Source of the DNA: Planctomycetota bacterium
GTDB taxonomy: Bacteria; Planctomycetota; Planctomycetia; Pirellulales; UBA1268
Reading direction: 5' to 3'
Length of the DNA: 64,000 nucleotides
Assembly (NCBI GenBank): GCA_018970785.1
Contig: JAGWVR010000006.1
Coordinates: 1 to 64,000 of the forward strand
The notes under the pieces are model-generated. The model was given only the letters and a program-made list of their open reading frames with translations, did not search any database and had not been told where the DNA came from. Positions 56,378 through 64,000 of this stretch are shown piece after piece. Every line of letters starts with the position of its first letter. Position 1 is the first letter of the stretch. Both the position numbers and the translations under genes were made by a program.

Positions 56378-57793
56378 ATGGCCACGCGTCGTTCCCGTTC
56401 CAGCGCCTCCCGTCGTGACTTCATCGCCACCGGTGCCACCGGTGCCGGAGCGCTGGCCGGCATCGCCGGTGGCGTGTGGATCGCTCCCGAGGTCCGCGCC
56501 GACGACAAGCCGGCGACGAGCGCCAACTCCGAGATCCGCTTCGCCTGCATCGGCATCGGTGGCAAGGGGCAGAGCGATTCGGCCGACGCAGCCCGCAACG
56601 GCAAGGTGGTCGCGGTCGCCGACGTCGACAGCAACCAGTTGAAGCGCGGCGAGAAGGCCTTCGAGGGGGCGAAGACGTTCCAGGACTACCGGAAGATGCT
56701 CGCCGAGGTCGGCAAGGAGATCGATGCCGTCACCGTCAGCACGCCCGACCACACCCACTTCGCCGCGGCGATGATGGCGATGGGGATGGGGAAGCACTGC
56801 TTCTGCCAGAAGCCGCTGACCCGGGCGATCTCCGAGGCGCGGCTGATGGGTGAATTGGCCCGCGCCAAGAAGCTCGCCACGCAGATGGGCAACCAGGGCA
56901 CCGCCGAGAGCTCGCTGCGGAAGGCGGCCGCGTTCATCAAGTCGGGAGGGTTGGGCACGGTCAAGGAACTGCACGTTTGGACCAACCGGCCGGTCTGGCC
57001 GCAGGGCGGGGGGCGCCCGGCGGAGGCTCCGGTTCCCGCCAACCTCGACTGGAATCTCTGGCTCGGCCCGGCGCCGGTCCGGCCCTACGGCACCGGCTAC
57101 CACCCCTTCAGCTGGCGTGGCTTCTGGGATTTCGGCACCGGTGCGCTCGGCGACATGGCCTGCCACACCTTCAACATGCCGTTCATGGCGCTCAACCTCC
57201 GCGACCCGTCGAGCGTCCAGGCGCTGACCAGCGGCCACAACAAGGAGACCTATCCGAAGTGGTCGATCATCGACTTCGATTTCCCGACGATCGGAGCCCG
57301 ACCGGGGTTGAAGGTGGTGTGGTACGACGGCGGCAAGCTCCCCGAGGAGGGTTTGTTCGCCGGCTTCCCCGGTGAGACCAAGAAGGACGCCGACGGAAAG
57401 GAGGAGACACTGCCGTTCAAGACCGCCTCGAGTGGCATCCTCTGCATCGGCGACAAGGACACGCTCTACGCTCCCGGCGACTACTGTGAGAAGGGCTTCA
57501 AGCTCAAGAGCGGCAAGGCACCCGCCGACGCCGAGTTCACGCCGTCGCCGGGCCATTTCATCGAATGGGTCAACGCCATCAAGGGTGGCCCGCAGCCGAT
57601 GTCGAACTTCCCCGACTACGCCGGGCCGCTCACCGAGACGATCCTGCTGGGGAACCTCGCGGTCTGGGCCGCCGACGTGGCGGAAACCAAGGGGAAGAAG
57701 ATCGAGTGGGATCCGGTGAAGTTGGTCGCCAAGAACGCCCCCGAGGTGGAGGCGATCATCCGGCCGACCGCACGCGATGGCTGGTCGGCCTGA
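56378..57793 (+). CDS. Gfo/Idh/MocA-family oxidoreductase with TAT signal
   Basis: SRRDFIATGATGAGALAGIAGG; RFACIGIGGKGQSDSADAARNGKVVAVADVD; VSTPDHTHFAAAMMAMGMGKHCFCQKPLT. Confidence 0.94.
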   Translation: MATRRSRSSASRRDFIATGATGAGALAGIAGGVWIAPEVRADDKPATSANSEIRFACIGIGGKGQSDSADAARNGKVVAVADVDSNQLKRGEKAFEGAKTFQDYRKMLAEVGKEIDAVTVSTPDHTHFAAAMMAMGMGKHCFCQKPLTRAISEARLMGELARAKKLATQMGNQGTAESSLRKAAAFIKSGGLGTVKELHVWTNRPVWPQGGGRPAEAPVPANLDWNLWLGPAPVRPYGTGYHPFSWRGFWDFGTGALGDMACHTFNMPFMALNLRDPSSVQALTSGHNKETYPKWSIIDFDFPTIGARPGLKVVWYDGGKLPEEGLFAGFPGETKKDADGKEETLPFKTASSGILCIGDKDTLYAPGDYCEKGFKLKSGKAPADAEFTPSPGHFIEWVNAIKGGPQPMSNFPDYAGPLTETILLGNLAVWAADVAETKGKKIEWDPVKLVAKNAPEVEAIIRPTARDGWSA

Positions 57794-57839
57794 GCCGACC
57801 GGCCGGCGGACGCAGGGATCGAGGAGTGAAGGAGGGGCT

Positions 57840-59138
57840 GTGACACGCGACGGTGGAACTGGCTCGCGGTCTGCGCTCGTGACGCGGCGTGGAGCAACGC
57901 TGATCGTGGCGCTGGCCCTCGCGGCCGGCGGCGCCCCGGCCCGGGCCCTGGAGCCCCTCCCTGCGGAGGCCGCCGCCGTCGCGCTGGTCAAGTCGCGCGG
58001 CGGGAGCGTCGAGTACGGGACCGACGGCCGGGTGACGAAGGTGAACCTCGCCAACCGGCCCGCCACCGATGCCGACCTCCGTGTCCTCGGCACGCTCCCG
58101 GGTCTGCAAGCGCTCGAGGTCTGGGGCGCCGAGATCGGCGATGCCGGCATGCCCGCGCTGGCGGCGATCGGATCGCTGCAGCAGTTGGTCCTCGAGAACA
58201 CCGACGTCACCGACACCGGCATCGGGGAACTGGCGAAGCTGCGGAACCTCAAGATCCTCAACCTCCGCCGCAGCTCGAACCTGTCCGATGCGGCGCTCGA
58301 GACCGTGGCGAAGCTCACCGGCCTCGAGCAACTCGTCCTGCTCTACAACAATTTCACCGATGCCGGGCTGGCCCATCTCCTGCCTCTGACAAAGCTCCGC
58401 GTGCTCGATCTGCGCGGTTGCTCGCTGATCGGCGACGCGGGGCTGGAGCACGTCGCCGGGATGACGAGTCTGGAGCGGGTCAAGCTCCGCTGCCCCGGGG
58501 TCACCGACCGCGGTCTGGCGGCGATCGCCCGGCTGCCGAAGCTCCGCGGGTTCGCCGCCGAGGACGGCCAGATCACCGACGCCGGACTGGCGCCGTTCGC
58601 CACCAAGGGGGACATCGACGAGATCAACGTGATGCGGACGTTCATCGGCGGCGACGGGCTCGCCCATCTCAAGGGGCTCGGCAAGCTCAAGCGCCTCGAG
58701 CTGCGCGGCACGCTGATCGACGACGCAGCGCTCGTCCACGTCGCCGGCCTCACCAATCTCGTCCTCCTCGACCTGGCGGAGACGGGGATCGGCGACGCCG
58801 GTGTCGCCCACCTCGGCCGACTCGAAAAGCTCGCCGACCTCGACCTGTGGGACACGAAGGTCGGCGACGAGGGGCTGACCACGATCGGTCGGCTGCCGGC
58901 CCTCACCAAGCTGGTGCTGCGGAACACCCGCATCACCGACGCGGGGCTCGGGCGACTGACCGGTTCGACGAAGCTGGCCACGCTCGACCTGGCCGGCACC
59001 AAGGTCGCCGGACCGGGCCTGGCGGCGGTGGGACGGCTGCCGGCGCTGCGGGCCCTCGACCTCAGCTTTGCACCGGTCAGCGACGATGCCCTGGCGGCTC
59101 TCCGCGCGGCCCGTCCTGAGATCGTCGTCACGAAGTGA
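57840..59138 (+). CDS. secreted leucine-rich-repeat protein
   Basis: GTG start; repeats LQQLVLENTDVTDTGIGELAKLRNLKILNL, LVLLDLAETGIGDAGVAHLGRLEKLADLDL, LVLRNTRITDAGLGRLTGSTKLATLDL (period about 24 aa). Confidence 0.9.
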   Translation: MTRDGGTGSRSALVTRRGATLIVALALAAGGAPARALEPLPAEAAAVALVKSRGGSVEYGTDGRVTKVNLANRPATDADLRVLGTLPGLQALEVWGAEIGDAGMPALAAIGSLQQLVLENTDVTDTGIGELAKLRNLKILNLRRSSNLSDAALETVAKLTGLEQLVLLYNNFTDAGLAHLLPLTKLRVLDLRGCSLIGDAGLEHVAGMTSLERVKLRCPGVTDRGLAAIARLPKLRGFAAEDGQITDAGLAPFATKGDIDEINVMRTFIGGDGLAHLKGLGKLKRLELRGTLIDDAALVHVAGLTNLVLLDLAETGIGDAGVAHLGRLEKLADLDLWDTKVGDEGLTTIGRLPALTKLVLRNTRITDAGLGRLTGSTKLATLDLAGTKVAGPGLAAVGRLPALRALDLSFAPVSDDALAALRAARPEIVVTK

Positions 59139-59403: not shown

Positions 59404-60153
59404 ATGATCCTCGGCAAGCTGTGGAAGGCGATGGCCGCCCAGGTCAACAAGATCGCCAATTTTTTCTGGACGGCCGATCCGATCGCGCAACTGCAGTACG
59501 AATACGACAAAGCGGTCGATCAGATGAAGGAGGGGCGCGAGGGGCTGGAGCAGTACCGGGCCCTCGTCGAGCGGGTCGCTCGGCAGGTCGAGGGTGACCG
59601 CCAGCATGTCGCCAAGCTCGAGGCGCAGGTCAAGGCCTACCTCCAAGCCGGCGAGCGCGAGACGGCGGCGAAGTTCGCGCTCGAATTGCAGCGCGTCCGC
59701 AAGGACCTCGAGGAGAACGAGGCCCAGCTCAAGCTCCACGAGACCGCCTATGGCAACAACGTCACCAAGGTCAAGCACGCCTCGAAAAAGCTCGCCGACC
59801 TCAAGCACAAGATCCAGAAGTACGACGCCGACCTGAAAATGTCGCGGGCCGAGGCGGAGCTGGCGAAGCTCGCCACGACCTTCAAATTCGACGTCACCAC
59901 CGACTTCGGCCAGATCGAGGACGTGATCCAGGACAAGATCGGGCTCAACCGCGCGAAGGTCCGCGTCGCCGCCGACCTGTCCGGCGAGGGGCTCGACAAG
60001 ATCAAGGACGAGCAGCGTGTCGAGGCGCAGATGGCCGACGCGGCCCTCCGTGAGTTCGAGCGCGAGTTGGGGATGGTGACTCCCGAGACGTCGAAGGTCA
60101 CGGACGACGAGAAGCTGCTCGGGTCCGAACGGCTCCGACAGATCTCAGGCTGA
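59404..60153 (+). CDS. pspA: PspA/IM30 (Vipp1) family protein
   Basis: MILGKLWKAMAAQVNKIANFFWTADPIAQLQYEYDKAVDQMKEGREGLEQYRALVERVARQVEGDRQHVAKLEAQVKAYLQAGERETAAKFALELQ; coiled coil. Confidence 0.85.
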   Translation: MILGKLWKAMAAQVNKIANFFWTADPIAQLQYEYDKAVDQMKEGREGLEQYRALVERVARQVEGDRQHVAKLEAQVKAYLQAGERETAAKFALELQRVRKDLEENEAQLKLHETAYGNNVTKVKHASKKLADLKHKIQKYDADLKMSRAEAELAKLATTFKFDVTTDFGQIEDVIQDKIGLNRAKVRVAADLSGEGLDKIKDEQRVEAQMADAALREFERELGMVTPETSKVTDDEKLLGSERLRQISG

Positions 60154-60349
60154 GGCGCCCCGTTCGCCACGGCGACGCCCCCGGCTTTTCCGTGGAGACC
60201 GTGGCGGCCAGCCTGGCGACGGATCGTGCAGCCCATCGGTGGCCGTGCCCCGTCCGGTCGGCGTGGCCCGTACCCCATGCGACCGACGGTCCGGCGTCAG
60301 TGGGACCCATGGCCAGACGAGGCGTGCGCCCGGGCGCACGGAAAGTGCC

Positions 60350-62287
60350 GTGAACGACGATTCATCGAGGGCGTCGGCGATCGGAGGCTCTCCGGCCCAC
60401 CGGGACCGCCTCCCCGCCGATACCGGCGCCGCGCCGGCCGCCAATGGCCAGCGGACCGGGCTGGGCACCGGGACCCGTCCCGGCGGTGCCCTGCCTGATT
60501 GGTGTCCGTCGTGGGCGGAGCGGCTCGGCGACGCCTACCTGTCGGGCACGAGTTGCGTCTTCCTGGTGCATGGCAACGTCCGCGATCTGGTGCCGCTCGG
60601 CCCCGAGTCGGCGGCGACGACGACACCTGCGGCCGATCCGGCGGCGGCTTTCGGAACCGTCGGTGACTTCCTCGCCCGCGAGGTCTTCGGCAGCTGGGAC
60701 GTGGTCCTGGCCTACGACGTCGGCAAGGGGCTGCGGCCGTTGGCCGGATCCGATCCGTCGCGGTTGCGCACGATGGTGCAATGGCTTTCCGAGCGGCTCG
60801 GCAACGCCTCGGCCTGGCCGCGCGAGCCCGATGCCGCCCTGGCCGCGATCGACGCGATCCTCGACCGGAATCTCACGGATCCTCCCGAGCAGCGCAAGAA
60901 GATCGCCGTCTTCCTCGACCATGCCCAGTACCTCGTGCCCGACGGCGATACCGCGAGCGCCTCGCGCGGTACCGCCGGCAGGCTCGTCCGGGTCGTCGGC
61001 TGGGCGACCAATCCACTGCTCCGTCGTGTCAACGTCGCGATCGTGCTGCTCGCCGAGACGATGGCCGAGGTCCACCCGCGTCTCGTCACCAATCCGGCGG
61101 TGACTGCGATCGAGGTGCCGCTCCCAGACGCCGACGAACGGCGCCGCTTCGCCCTGGCCACCGCGAGTGCCGTGGGCGTGCCGGCCGGACAGATGGACGC
61201 CGTCGAGCGCATGGCGAAGCTCTCCGCCGGCCTCTCGCTCGAGAGCATCAGGGCGATCGTCACGCTGTCGGCGCGGGAGGGCACGGCGCCCGACGGAGCC
61301 GAATTCGGCGCCAAGAAAAAGGATCTCATCGAGCGGTCGTGCCGGGGGCTGATCGAGTTCATCCAGCCACGCCTGACGCTCGACAACGTCGCCGGTCACG
61401 AGGCCGCGAAGGCACGCCTCGAGGCCGATGCCAAGGCGATCCGTCGTGGCCAGCTCGATGCCGCACCGATGGGCTACCTGATCTGCGGGCCGGTGGGTAC
61501 CGGCAAGAGCTTCATCGCCGAGTGCTACGCCGGCAGCGTCGGGATCCCGTGCGTGGAGTTGAAGAACTTCCGCAGCAAGTACGTCGGCGAGACCGAGGGC
61601 AATCTCGAGCACGCCCTCGGCGTGCTCCGCAGCCTCGGCCCGGTGGTGGTGATCATCGACGAGGCCGATGCGGCCCTCGGCAACCGTGAGTCCGGTGGTG
61701 ACTCAGGAACCAGCGCCCGGGTGTTCTCGATGATCGCCCGGCAGATGGGAGACACCCGCTACCGCGGCAAGATCGTCTGGATGCTCCTCACCAGCCGCCC
61801 TGATCGCCTCCCCATCGACCTCAAGCGACAGGGGCGGGCGGAGGTCCACATTCCCCTCTTCTATCCACACGATCAGGCTGAGATGGAGGCGATGTTCCAG
61901 GCGATGGCGCGGAAATGCCGCGTGAAGCTGGCGCCGGGCCTGCCGGGGCCGGTGGATCTCGAACTCGGCCTGTCCGGGGCCGACATCGAGAGCATCGTCC
62001 TGGCGGCGCGCCGCAAGGGGCTCGAGCGCGCCGCCGCCGCTGCCGAGGAAGGGCGACCGGCTCCCGGCGGCGACGAGATCGGCGTTGCCGATTTCCAGGA
62101 GGCACTCACCGACTTCCTTCCCTCGGCGCAGGGCTTGGAGAAGGAAGCCCAGGAGATCGCCGCCGTCCTCGAATGCACCGAAAAGCGCTTCCTGCCCGAG
62201 CGCTGGCGCGAAGCCGTCAGCCGCCCCGGCGGGCGCGCCGACCTGCAGGAGCGGATGGCTGAGCTGCGCGACATGGCGGGCACCTGA
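60350..62287 (+). CDS. AAA+ ATPase (FtsH/Vps4/CDC48-like AAA module) with N-terminal AAA-like region lacking an obvious Walker A
   Basis: YLICGPVGTGKSFIAECYAGSVGIPCVELKNFRSKYVGETEGNLEHAL; VVVIIDEADAALGNRES; LLTSRPDRLPIDLKRQGRAEVHIPLFYP; N-terminus CVFLVHGNVRDLVPL...; GTG 60350 or ATG 60239 start. Confidence 0.88.
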   Translation: MNDDSSRASAIGGSPAHRDRLPADTGAAPAANGQRTGLGTGTRPGGALPDWCPSWAERLGDAYLSGTSCVFLVHGNVRDLVPLGPESAATTTPAADPAAAFGTVGDFLAREVFGSWDVVLAYDVGKGLRPLAGSDPSRLRTMVQWLSERLGNASAWPREPDAALAAIDAILDRNLTDPPEQRKKIAVFLDHAQYLVPDGDTASASRGTAGRLVRVVGWATNPLLRRVNVAIVLLAETMAEVHPRLVTNPAVTAIEVPLPDADERRRFALATASAVGVPAGQMDAVERMAKLSAGLSLESIRAIVTLSAREGTAPDGAEFGAKKKDLIERSCRGLIEFIQPRLTLDNVAGHEAAKARLEADAKAIRRGQLDAAPMGYLICGPVGTGKSFIAECYAGSVGIPCVELKNFRSKYVGETEGNLEHALGVLRSLGPVVVIIDEADAALGNRESGGDSGTSARVFSMIARQMGDTRYRGKIVWMLLTSRPDRLPIDLKRQGRAEVHIPLFYPHDQAEMEAMFQAMARKCRVKLAPGLPGPVDLELGLSGADIESIVLAARRKGLERAAAAAEEGRPAPGGDEIGVADFQEALTDFLPSAQGLEKEAQEIAAVLECTEKRFLPERWREAVSRPGGRADLQERMAELRDMAGT

Positions 62288-62371
62288 GCCACGCCCGCGA
62301 AGCACCGACGCCGTTCCGCCCGTCGAGACCGTTTTCCCGTTGGCCGATCCGAAACCCCCGAGGAGTTCACC

Positions 62372-62677
62372 ATGGCCCGTGGTTCCAGCCCCAGCACCCC
62401 CTGGTTCGACGCCACCACCGAGGCGCCGCTGCTGCAGGAGTACGCGCGGAAGCTCGACTCGTTCGTCGACGCGGTCGCCGACGGGCGTGTCGATTCGAAG
62501 GAAGTCGAGGACCAGGAGAAGCGGCTCGTGGCCCTGATGAAGGAGGTCGAGCCACTCCTCTCCCCCGAGGCCCACGAGAAGGTGACCAAGCTGCTGTGCG
62601 AGGTCACGGCCTACGACCTGATGAACATGCTTCACATGGCGGGCCGGGCGCGGCCGCGGACCCGGTTTCAGGGTTGA
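62372..62677 (+). CDS. small acidic hypothetical protein
   Basis: 101 aa: STPWFDATTEAPLLQEYARKLDSFVDAVADGRVDSKEVEDQEKRLVALMKEVEPLLSPEAHEKVTKLLCEVTAYDLMNMLHMAG. Confidence 0.8.
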   Translation: MARGSSPSTPWFDATTEAPLLQEYARKLDSFVDAVADGRVDSKEVEDQEKRLVALMKEVEPLLSPEAHEKVTKLLCEVTAYDLMNMLHMAGRARPRTRFQG

Positions 62678-62721
62678 TCTGACGGCGGTCACGATCCGGT
62701 CGGTTTTTCACGAGGGACACG

Positions 62722-64000
62722 ATGGCGAACGAACCCAAGGCTCCGTTCTGGCTGGCGGTGTGGGCGGTGATCCTCGGACTGGTCGCCCTGGCCGCGTGGC
62801 GGGCCGGGATGTTCGGCGACCGCCCCGTGCCGGCGCCGCGTGCCGCCCCGATGGCCGGGGGGCCCGGCCCGGGCGGTGGTGGACCGGCGCCGGGGGGGGA
62901 CGGTGGGAGCGGCACCGAGGGGCCCATGTCCGAGGCCCCCGACGTCGCCGTGCCCACAACCGTGAAGGAATACACCTTCAAGCCCGCCGAGCGCCTGCCG
63001 CCGGTGAAGGGGGTCAGCGCCTACAAGCCGCTGGAAAACGACACCGTCCGCTTCGCCCTCAACGTCTGGGCCGGTTGGAGCCCGATCATCCTCGCCAACG
63101 ACGGCTTCAAGCCGGGCAAGGTCTGGCAGGCGCCGGGGGGGCGTCCGTTCAAGGTCGAGCTGGTGCTGATCGACGACCCTGTCCAGATGCGGGATGCCTA
63201 CGCGGCCGGTGAGGTCCACGTCGGCTGGGCGACGCTCGACATGCTGCCGTTGTTCGTCGACAGCTTCGCCAAGGATTCGCGGATCATGCCGCGCGTCTAC
63301 CAGCAGGTCGACTTCTCCAACGGTGGCGACGGGATCGTCGTCCGCGACACGATCAAGACGGTCAAGGATCTCGCCGGCAAGAAGCTCGTGATGGCGCAGA
63401 ACTCGCCGAGCCAGTTCTTCGCCCTCAACATGCTCGTTGCCGGCGGGCTGCAGCCGGCGGACGTGGAGATGATCTACGTCACGACGGCGTTCGAGGCCGC
63501 CGCCGCCTTCAACCGCGACAAGAGCATCGCCGGTTGTGTGTCGTGGGCCCCGGACATCTACAACCTCGCCGAAGCCAAGGGCAACCGGATGCTGGTCACG
63601 ACCAAGACCGCCAACCGGCTGATCGCCGACGTCTGGTTCGCCCGGGCGGACTTCGCCAAGGATCACCCCGACAAGGTCGAGGCCCTCGTGCGCGGCATCT
63701 TCGACGCGATGAGCGAGCTGAATCGCGAAGATGTCCGGGCCCGCGTCGCCCAGCTGATGGCCGACGGGTACACGATCCCGGCCGCCGACGCGCTGTCGAT
63801 GCTCGGCGATGCCCACTCGACCAACTGGGCCGAGAACTACCAGTTTTTCCTCAACCGCAACAATCCCGCCAATTTCGAGCGGATCTGGAAGCAGGCTTAC
63901 TACCTGTACCGGAAGGTCGGGGCGATCTCCAACAATCCCGTGCCGTTCGATCAGGTGATGGATTTCTCGGTCCTGCAGAAACTCGGTACCGAGCCGAAAT
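62722..64000 (+). CDS. membrane-anchored ABC-type solute-binding protein (truncated at window edge)
   Basis: MANEPKAPFWLAVWAVILGLVALAAWRAG; Gly/Pro linker; VRFALNVWAGWSPIILANDGFKPGKVW...VQMRDAYAAGEVHVGWATLDMLPLFVDSF...SPSQFFALNMLVAGGL; open to window end. Confidence 0.83.
   Translation, partial: MANEPKAPFWLAVWAVILGLVALAAWRAGMFGDRPVPAPRAAPMAGGPGPGGGGPAPGGDGGSGTEGPMSEAPDVAVPTTVKEYTFKPAERLPPVKGVSAYKPLENDTVRFALNVWAGWSPIILANDGFKPGKVWQAPGGRPFKVELVLIDDPVQMRDAYAAGEVHVGWATLDMLPLFVDSFAKDSRIMPRVYQQVDFSNGGDGIVVRDTIKTVKDLAGKKLVMAQNSPSQFFALNMLVAGGLQPADVEMIYVTTAFEAAAAFNRDKSIAGCVSWAPDIYNLAEAKGNRMLVTTKTANRLIADVWFARADFAKDHPDKVEALVRGIFDAMSELNREDVRARVAQLMADGYTIPAADALSMLGDAHSTNWAENYQFFLNRNNPANFERIWKQAYYLYRKVGAISNNPVPFDQVMDFSVLQKLGTEPK

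Follow-up and report, generated by a model that had tools for sequence, protein, structure and literature searches.

The stretch of DNA analysed here, referred to as the window, comprises bases 1-64000 of a 67305-bp contig (JAGWVR010000006.1) from a planctomycete whose genome is 69% complete. Its right end harbors a gene for a PspA/IM30 protein, a member of the ESCRT-III superfamily, followed by genes for an AAA ATPase, a small protein and a solute-binding protein. As the original prediction had it, these four genes are consecutive and co-directional, all located on the + strand, and the module runs past the window edge. The remainder of the contig completes the gene for the solute-binding protein (hereafter the receptor) and adds genes for a binding-protein-dependent permease, an ATP-binding cassette (ABC) ATPase and a protein with a transmembrane (TM) region and a coiled coil. 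The full unit comprises seven co-directional genes in the order PspA-AAA-small-SBP/OmpA-permease-ABC-cc (SBP, solute-binding protein; cc, coiled-coil protein). Because the intergenic gaps across these genes range only from –4 to 85 bp (–4, –4 and 30 bp at the permease, ABC ATPase and coiled-coil genes), they very likely form a single operon. PspA is common to this unit and the classical psp operon (pspF-pspABC), but a Pfam scan of the operon genes revealed no PspB, PspC or PspF.

The PspA gene (59404-60153, + strand) encodes 249 amino acids, of which residues 1-165 match the Pfam family PspA_IM30 (PF04012) with 51.3 bits at a cut-off of 33.9, in agreement with the PspA homologue proposed previously. 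A hidden Markov model built for the subtype gives other PspAs from related genomes scores of only about 0 to 7 bits. The genome of the window encodes a second PspA-family protein (G000:C34:118853-119467; L147) of a different subtype, which carries an N-terminal hydrophobic segment, is not of the AAA-linked type and has counterparts in genomes G003 and G019.

The adjacent ATPase gene (60239-62287, + strand) encodes 682 amino acids when read from a GTG codon. Its start is uncertain, since conservation begins only near residue 85, and the true start codon probably lies downstream. Two AAA domains are arranged in tandem. The second one (Pfam AAA, 82 bits, residues 414-539) shows motifs of a classical AAA domain, namely, on the + strand, Walker A (GPVGTGKS, 61487-61510), pore loop 1 (SKYVG, 61574-61588), Walker B (DEAD, 61658-61669) and the arginine fingers (RQGR, 61826-61837). 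These elements are conserved in an alignment (A1) whose sequences were not chosen by Walker, pore-loop or arginine-finger motifs: the pore loop is invariant, Walker A is invariant except for S/T, and RQGR covers both arginine-finger positions. For loci L060-L139, KYVG and DEAD were not counted as evidence of conservation because these loci had been retrieved by the patterns RSKYVGET and DEADAALG. The pore loop, which corresponds to SKWMG in Vps4, is compatible with substrate threading. The first domain (60479-61333, + strand) is AAA-like but degenerate. Each ATPase contains a single GxxxxGK[ST], located in the second domain, and a conserved HGN motif (HGNVRD) replaces Walker A in the first; in the N-terminal half, the AlphaFold model shows alternating strands and helices. 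Foldseek aligned p97/Cdc48, Rix7 and AFG2 over the whole length of the ATPase and both of its domains at about 16-18% identity, and a sequence search of the PDB returned AFG2 and Cdc48 as top matches. Judged by its sequence, the protein looks like a working threading enzyme with a non-hydrolyzing first ring.

This architecture bears on the earlier description of the ATPase as Vps4/CDC48-like. The classical motifs of the second domain and the Cdc48-like tandem agree with it, but the architecture of Vps4 was not recovered: a Pfam scan revealed neither an MIT domain, the N-terminal half being the degenerate AAA-like domain, nor a Vps4_C domain, and the CdvC equivalog NF041006 scored 49.8 bits, far short of its cut-off of 650. 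We therefore rule out that the protein is a Vps4. The difference from Cdc48/p97, AFG2 and Rix7, which share the two serial AAA domains and are the best structural and sequence matches, lies in the first domain without Walker A and in the N-terminal Cdc48 domain, which was not found here.

The third gene (62372-62677, + strand) encodes a protein of 101 amino acids with an isoelectric point of 5.4, for which AlphaFold (confidence, pLDDT, 78) predicts helices at residues 21-36, 42-62 and 65-93. It represents a family conserved in 86 loci, for which neither Pfam nor the PDB, searched by sequence and by fold, yielded a relative. The small acidic, helical character that had been suggested thus holds, but any adaptor role is not universal, since the profiles used do not detect the protein in deep relatives that retain PspA and AAA. 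An MIT-like adaptor was likewise dismissed, as neither fold nor sequence comparison of the three helices gave an MIT match in the PDB. What looked like a fusion of AAA and small protein in L050 proved to be an assembly gap: the open reading frame crosses a stretch of Ns and lacks the AAA C-terminus.

The receptor gene begins at 62722 on the + strand and extends through the window end at 64000 to C111:64491. The encoded protein of 589 amino acids contains one N-terminal TM helix (residues 7-25), an NMT1/SsuA-like binding fold and a C-terminal OmpA domain, the last two recognized by Pfam. The anchored ABC-type binding protein expected from the window is thereby found, although not as a standalone component: it is a dispensable subunit of a full importer and carries an OmpA domain. 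The coiled-coil protein, in which a membrane region at the N-terminus is combined with a long coiled coil, belongs to no clear Pfam family. No PspA- or Snf7-like relationship was detected for it, a profile comparison with PspA giving a probability of 0.1.

A survey of neighborhoods, which the original prediction had named as a check, found the gene set conserved. An AAA match of some kind occurs in 57 of 59 related genomes, but only the near-full-length ones are members of the ATPase family. PspA-AAA-small appears in identical order in 20 neighborhoods taken from the same genus, family and order, and most of these continue with the four transporter-side genes. When 84,980 species genomes were scanned, 80 loci emerged, mainly from Planctomycetota and in addition from Myxococcota, Gemmatimonadota and Acidobacteriota. 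The latter three phyla show a second order, PspA-SBP/OmpA-permease-ABC-cc-AAA-small. PspA-AAA-small is also present in a named isolate, Aquisphaera insulae JC669 (L101). Among the 38 loci whose flanks span no less than 6.5 kb upstream and 6 kb downstream, PspA is found in 37, the small gene in 35, the individual transporter-side genes in 29 to 31 and the complete set of seven in 25, which argues that the genes are not grouped by chance; the occurrence of one gene set in two orders is good evidence that the genes function as a unit. A tree of the ATPase (FastTree only, with long branches present) places the second order also on the deep branches L182, L177, L132 and L136, and it may therefore be the older one.

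The PspA subtype and the ATPase also co-occur at the genome level. Of 294 planctomycete genomes sampled, 27 encode the ATPase family (23/279 of the best genomes) and 11 the PspA subtype, and all 11 of these also possess the ATPase. The transporter, by comparison, is optional: four genomes of 92-96% completeness (G011, G012, G022 and G035) that encode the ATPase lack an SBP/OmpA gene altogether, and three of them (G011, G012 and G035) have intact PspA-AAA-small triads followed by unrelated genes. These transporter-free triads are scattered in the ATPase tree and look like losses.

A further feature that links PspA to the ATPase is a short motif in the PspA tail. The final 25 residues of the window protein, VTPETSKVTDDEKLLGSERLRQISG, contain the candidate ATPase-recruiting motif KLLGS (60112-60126, + strand; consensus [KR]-x-[LIM]-G-P/S/T), identified by comparison of tails. 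Across 91 AAA-linked PspAs, the tail retains the two elements G...P.T and K.LG. Deep AAA-adjacent PspAs, the cores of which are only about 19-40% (mostly 19-30%) identical to that of the window protein, retain the second element only, preceded by a linker that is rich in alanine and proline and varies in length, and in the forms EKTIGP, EKTMGP, TKSMGP, GKSMGP, AKTMGP, PRTMGP and KEMGP (twice). The loose pattern [KR]x[LIM]G was discarded because it also matches the end of the last helix and 7 of 42 other PspAs, and was exchanged for versions that fix the fifth residue. The wider motif, [KR]x[LIM]G[PSTAGE] within the last 40 residues, is present in 80/81 AAA-linked and 8/9 deep AAA-adjacent PspAs but in 0/42 other PspAs, while shuffled tails carry it at 2-3%. 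The strict motif, which ends in P, gives 49/81, 7/9 and 0/42 for the same groups. The 42 comparison proteins are from Planctomycetota, several from the same genomes as the AAA-type PspAs.

The retention of the motif in the deep relatives led to a prediction: where an ATPase has no adjacent PspA, an AAA-type PspA encoded elsewhere should bear the motif. This was the case for all seven such proteins (two from G114, one each from G065, G107, G072 and G091, and the second copy of G118), with [KR]x[LIM]GP in four and KT[LI]GE in three of them; about six are independent, as G072 and G091 are close relatives. Comparing the seven with the 42 other PspAs by Fisher's test gave p = 1.7e-4 for the strict and 1.2e-8 for the wider motif, both of which are optimistic because of relatedness and the post hoc widening. 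In five genomes (G118, G078, G114, G107 and G117), ATPase and motif are kept while the profiles used detect neither the small nor the coiled-coil gene, which leaves the ATPase as the only constant partner found. Conversely, the single-contig genome G040 has adjacent PspA and small genes, no ATPase, and a PspA tail without the motif (QKEPVQIEETPATEETEK). Taken together, the tracking of the ATPase by the motif and its absence in G040 make it the simplest reading that the ATPase itself would bind the motif.

Some tails show further elements. One PspA contains the motif twice (L167:4374-5174; QKEMGPG and VKEMGPA), and in others a second element, KALEPLPE or KAFEPVPE, is located behind it (L101:7031-7780 and L188:4214-4975); this element persists in L130 (L130:6511-7323), which lacks the motif itself. 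Additional genes also adjoin the unit. A leucine-rich-repeat protein is encoded directly upstream of PspA in the window (57777-59138) and is kept in the same genus as well as in L041, L048, L049 and L050 (about 55-62% identity); elsewhere it is not found beside PspA. A VWA-domain protein gene occurs in 11 loci of several phyla at varying positions and is a possible eighth member (L117:524-1315, with an apparent lipoprotein signal; L081:10089-10877; L133:10320-11258; and eight further loci). A family of ~180 amino acids without a Pfam match is encoded behind the small gene in Myxococcota (L110:10056-10601, L112, L121, L122 and L123) and upstream of PspA in L080:6283-6846. Finally, L169:8117-18999 (G254) encodes a distant double-AAA relative, next to which lie genes for a coiled-coil protein that resembles PspA in appearance but has no Pfam match and for a DUF3686/AAA protein of 1935 amino acids, perhaps a different system with the same kind of ATPase.

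Based on gene linkage, co-occurrence in genomes, conservation of the motif and its absence from the ATPase-free genome, we propose, with a probability of roughly 60%, that the locus encodes a bacterial ESCRT-III/ATPase pair with an attached transporter, in which the ATPase would be recruited by the PspA tail and extract PspA subunits. The steps of this scheme, that is, PspA polymerization, binding of the ATPase to PspA, threading and disassembly, as well as all functions of the transporter part, are ones that we infer. The PspA subtype would polymerize on the inner membrane and present [KR]-x-[LIM]-G-P/S on its disordered C-terminal tail. The tandem AAA protein, with a degenerate first ring and an active second ring bearing an aromatic pore loop, would recognize this tail and thread PspA subunits through its pore, thereby remodeling or recycling the polymer as Vps4 does with ESCRT-III. 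The small protein would be a frequent yet dispensable co-factor. In most but not all lineages, the ABC importer, with its TM-anchored peptidoglycan-binding receptor, permease and ATPase, could couple this activity, together with the coiled-coil protein, to the envelope state or a periplasmic ligand.

Several observations weigh against this proposal. At the sensor-1 position, the second AAA domain has Ser (TSRP), where the classical AAA proteins Vps4 and Cdc48 have Asn, and the AlphaFold confidence is low in the N-terminal half including the first AAA domain (pLDDT often <50). The motif class was broadened from G-P to G-[PSTAGE] after the data had been seen, the strict form being less complete, and the motif-bearing PspAs may constitute one clade, so that the sequences would not be independent. 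Only in one case, G040, are motif and ATPase absent together. L130 has PspA and AAA without the motif, which is doubtful in L177, and the 90% complete genome G066 contains AAA, small and coiled-coil genes (L173:8116-11424) with no PspA detected in the genome.

Other explanations were considered. The ATPase could act as a chaperone in the assembly or recycling of the ABC transporter or of a different envelope complex, with PspA as a membrane platform instead of a substrate. The transporter and coiled-coil genes indeed accompany the PspA-ATPase pair in most loci, in three phyla the ATPase gene is located directly behind the coiled-coil gene and not behind PspA, and Ravi et al. (2024; PMC11237479) also suggest a role in membrane-complex assembly. 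However, several nearly complete genomes keep PspA-AAA-small without a transporter, and the tail motif follows the ATPase and not the transporter side; we consider this explanation unlikely. Still less probable is that another protein, such as a general chaperone, a protease or an envelope regulator, reads the tail motif and that the ATPase is merely functionally linked to PspA. Binding of the motif by the ATPase was deduced from sequences, and Hsp70-type chaperones appear to disassemble PspA/Vipp1-type polymers, those of the related Vipp1, in chloroplasts (PMC13051332). Against this reading, the motif is absent from the PspA of the ATPase-free G040 and from 42 other PspAs, some of them paralogues encoded alongside the ATPase in the same genomes.

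The combination, in one operon, of importer subunits with a receptor carrying a TM anchor and an OmpA peptidoglycan-binding domain, and the extra VWA gene mentioned above, would also fit a signaling module, in which a ligand on the anchored receptor alters PspA assembly to elicit an envelope stress response and the ATPase resets the switch. Given that the unit is accompanied by no conserved regulator gene and that the receptor is dispensable, we regard this as very improbable. An anti-phage role was rejected, since it could be based on just weak AAA-domain matches to IetA and an OmpA/MotB match to ZorB. Overall, the original interpretation is partly supported: an ESCRT-III-like protein with a dedicated AAA protein is well supported by the linkage in four phyla, the co-occurrence in genomes and the tail motif tracking the ATPase, and the locus likely encodes an ESCRT-like PspA/ATPase pair that does not involve Vps4 and to which the transporter is an optional addition.

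The operon type and the ESCRT-like idea were already described by Ravi et al. (2024, mSystems; PMC11237479), and the locus is a further example. That paper reports bacterial PspA accompanied by a protein with two AAA copies, the N-terminal one inactive, and longer operons adding an ABC ATPase, a permease and a PBPB-OmpA protein, for which ATP-dependent, ESCRT-like membrane remodeling was proposed. Both systems thus share PspA, an AAA protein with an inactive N-terminal copy (assigned here on a low-confidence model of the first domain), and, in one operon, the ABC ATPase, permease and solute-/peptidoglycan-binding protein, while the "Snf7 with a TM segment" of Ravi et al. may or may not equal our coiled-coil protein. 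In its main text we found nothing on the PspA tail motif, on the 101-amino-acid protein, on triads lacking the transporter or on the existence of two gene orders. With ESCRT-III/Vps4 (archaeal CdvB/CdvC), the pair shares an ESCRT-III superfamily polymer protein, a classical AAA protein and a polymer-protein tail motif that tracks the ATPase. It differs in its tandem AAA with a degenerate first domain, in the lack of MIT and Vps4_C, and in a tail motif that by sequence is neither MIM1 nor MIM2. The more far-reaching view, that this is an independently built bacterial ESCRT-III/ATPase machine with a tandem-AAA unfoldase, recruitment to PspA polymers by the tail motif in the manner of the ESCRT-III MIM motifs, and optional coupling to a peptidoglycan-tethered ABC importer, strikes us as evenly balanced.

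The disassembly of PspA/Vipp1 polymers in bacteria is poorly understood, and no Vps4 counterpart acting on PspA is reported in PMC13051332, PMC11746142 or PMC11520248. The tail motif is the strongest new lead from this locus and opens a bacterial counterpart of the ESCRT-III/Vps4 pairing to direct testing. If the ATPase does disassemble PspA, the principle of an ESCRT-III protein with a dedicated ATPase would extend to bacteria, where both the ATPase and the docking motif differ, and two purified proteins and a short peptide would suffice to test whether this principle is of convergent or very ancient origin.

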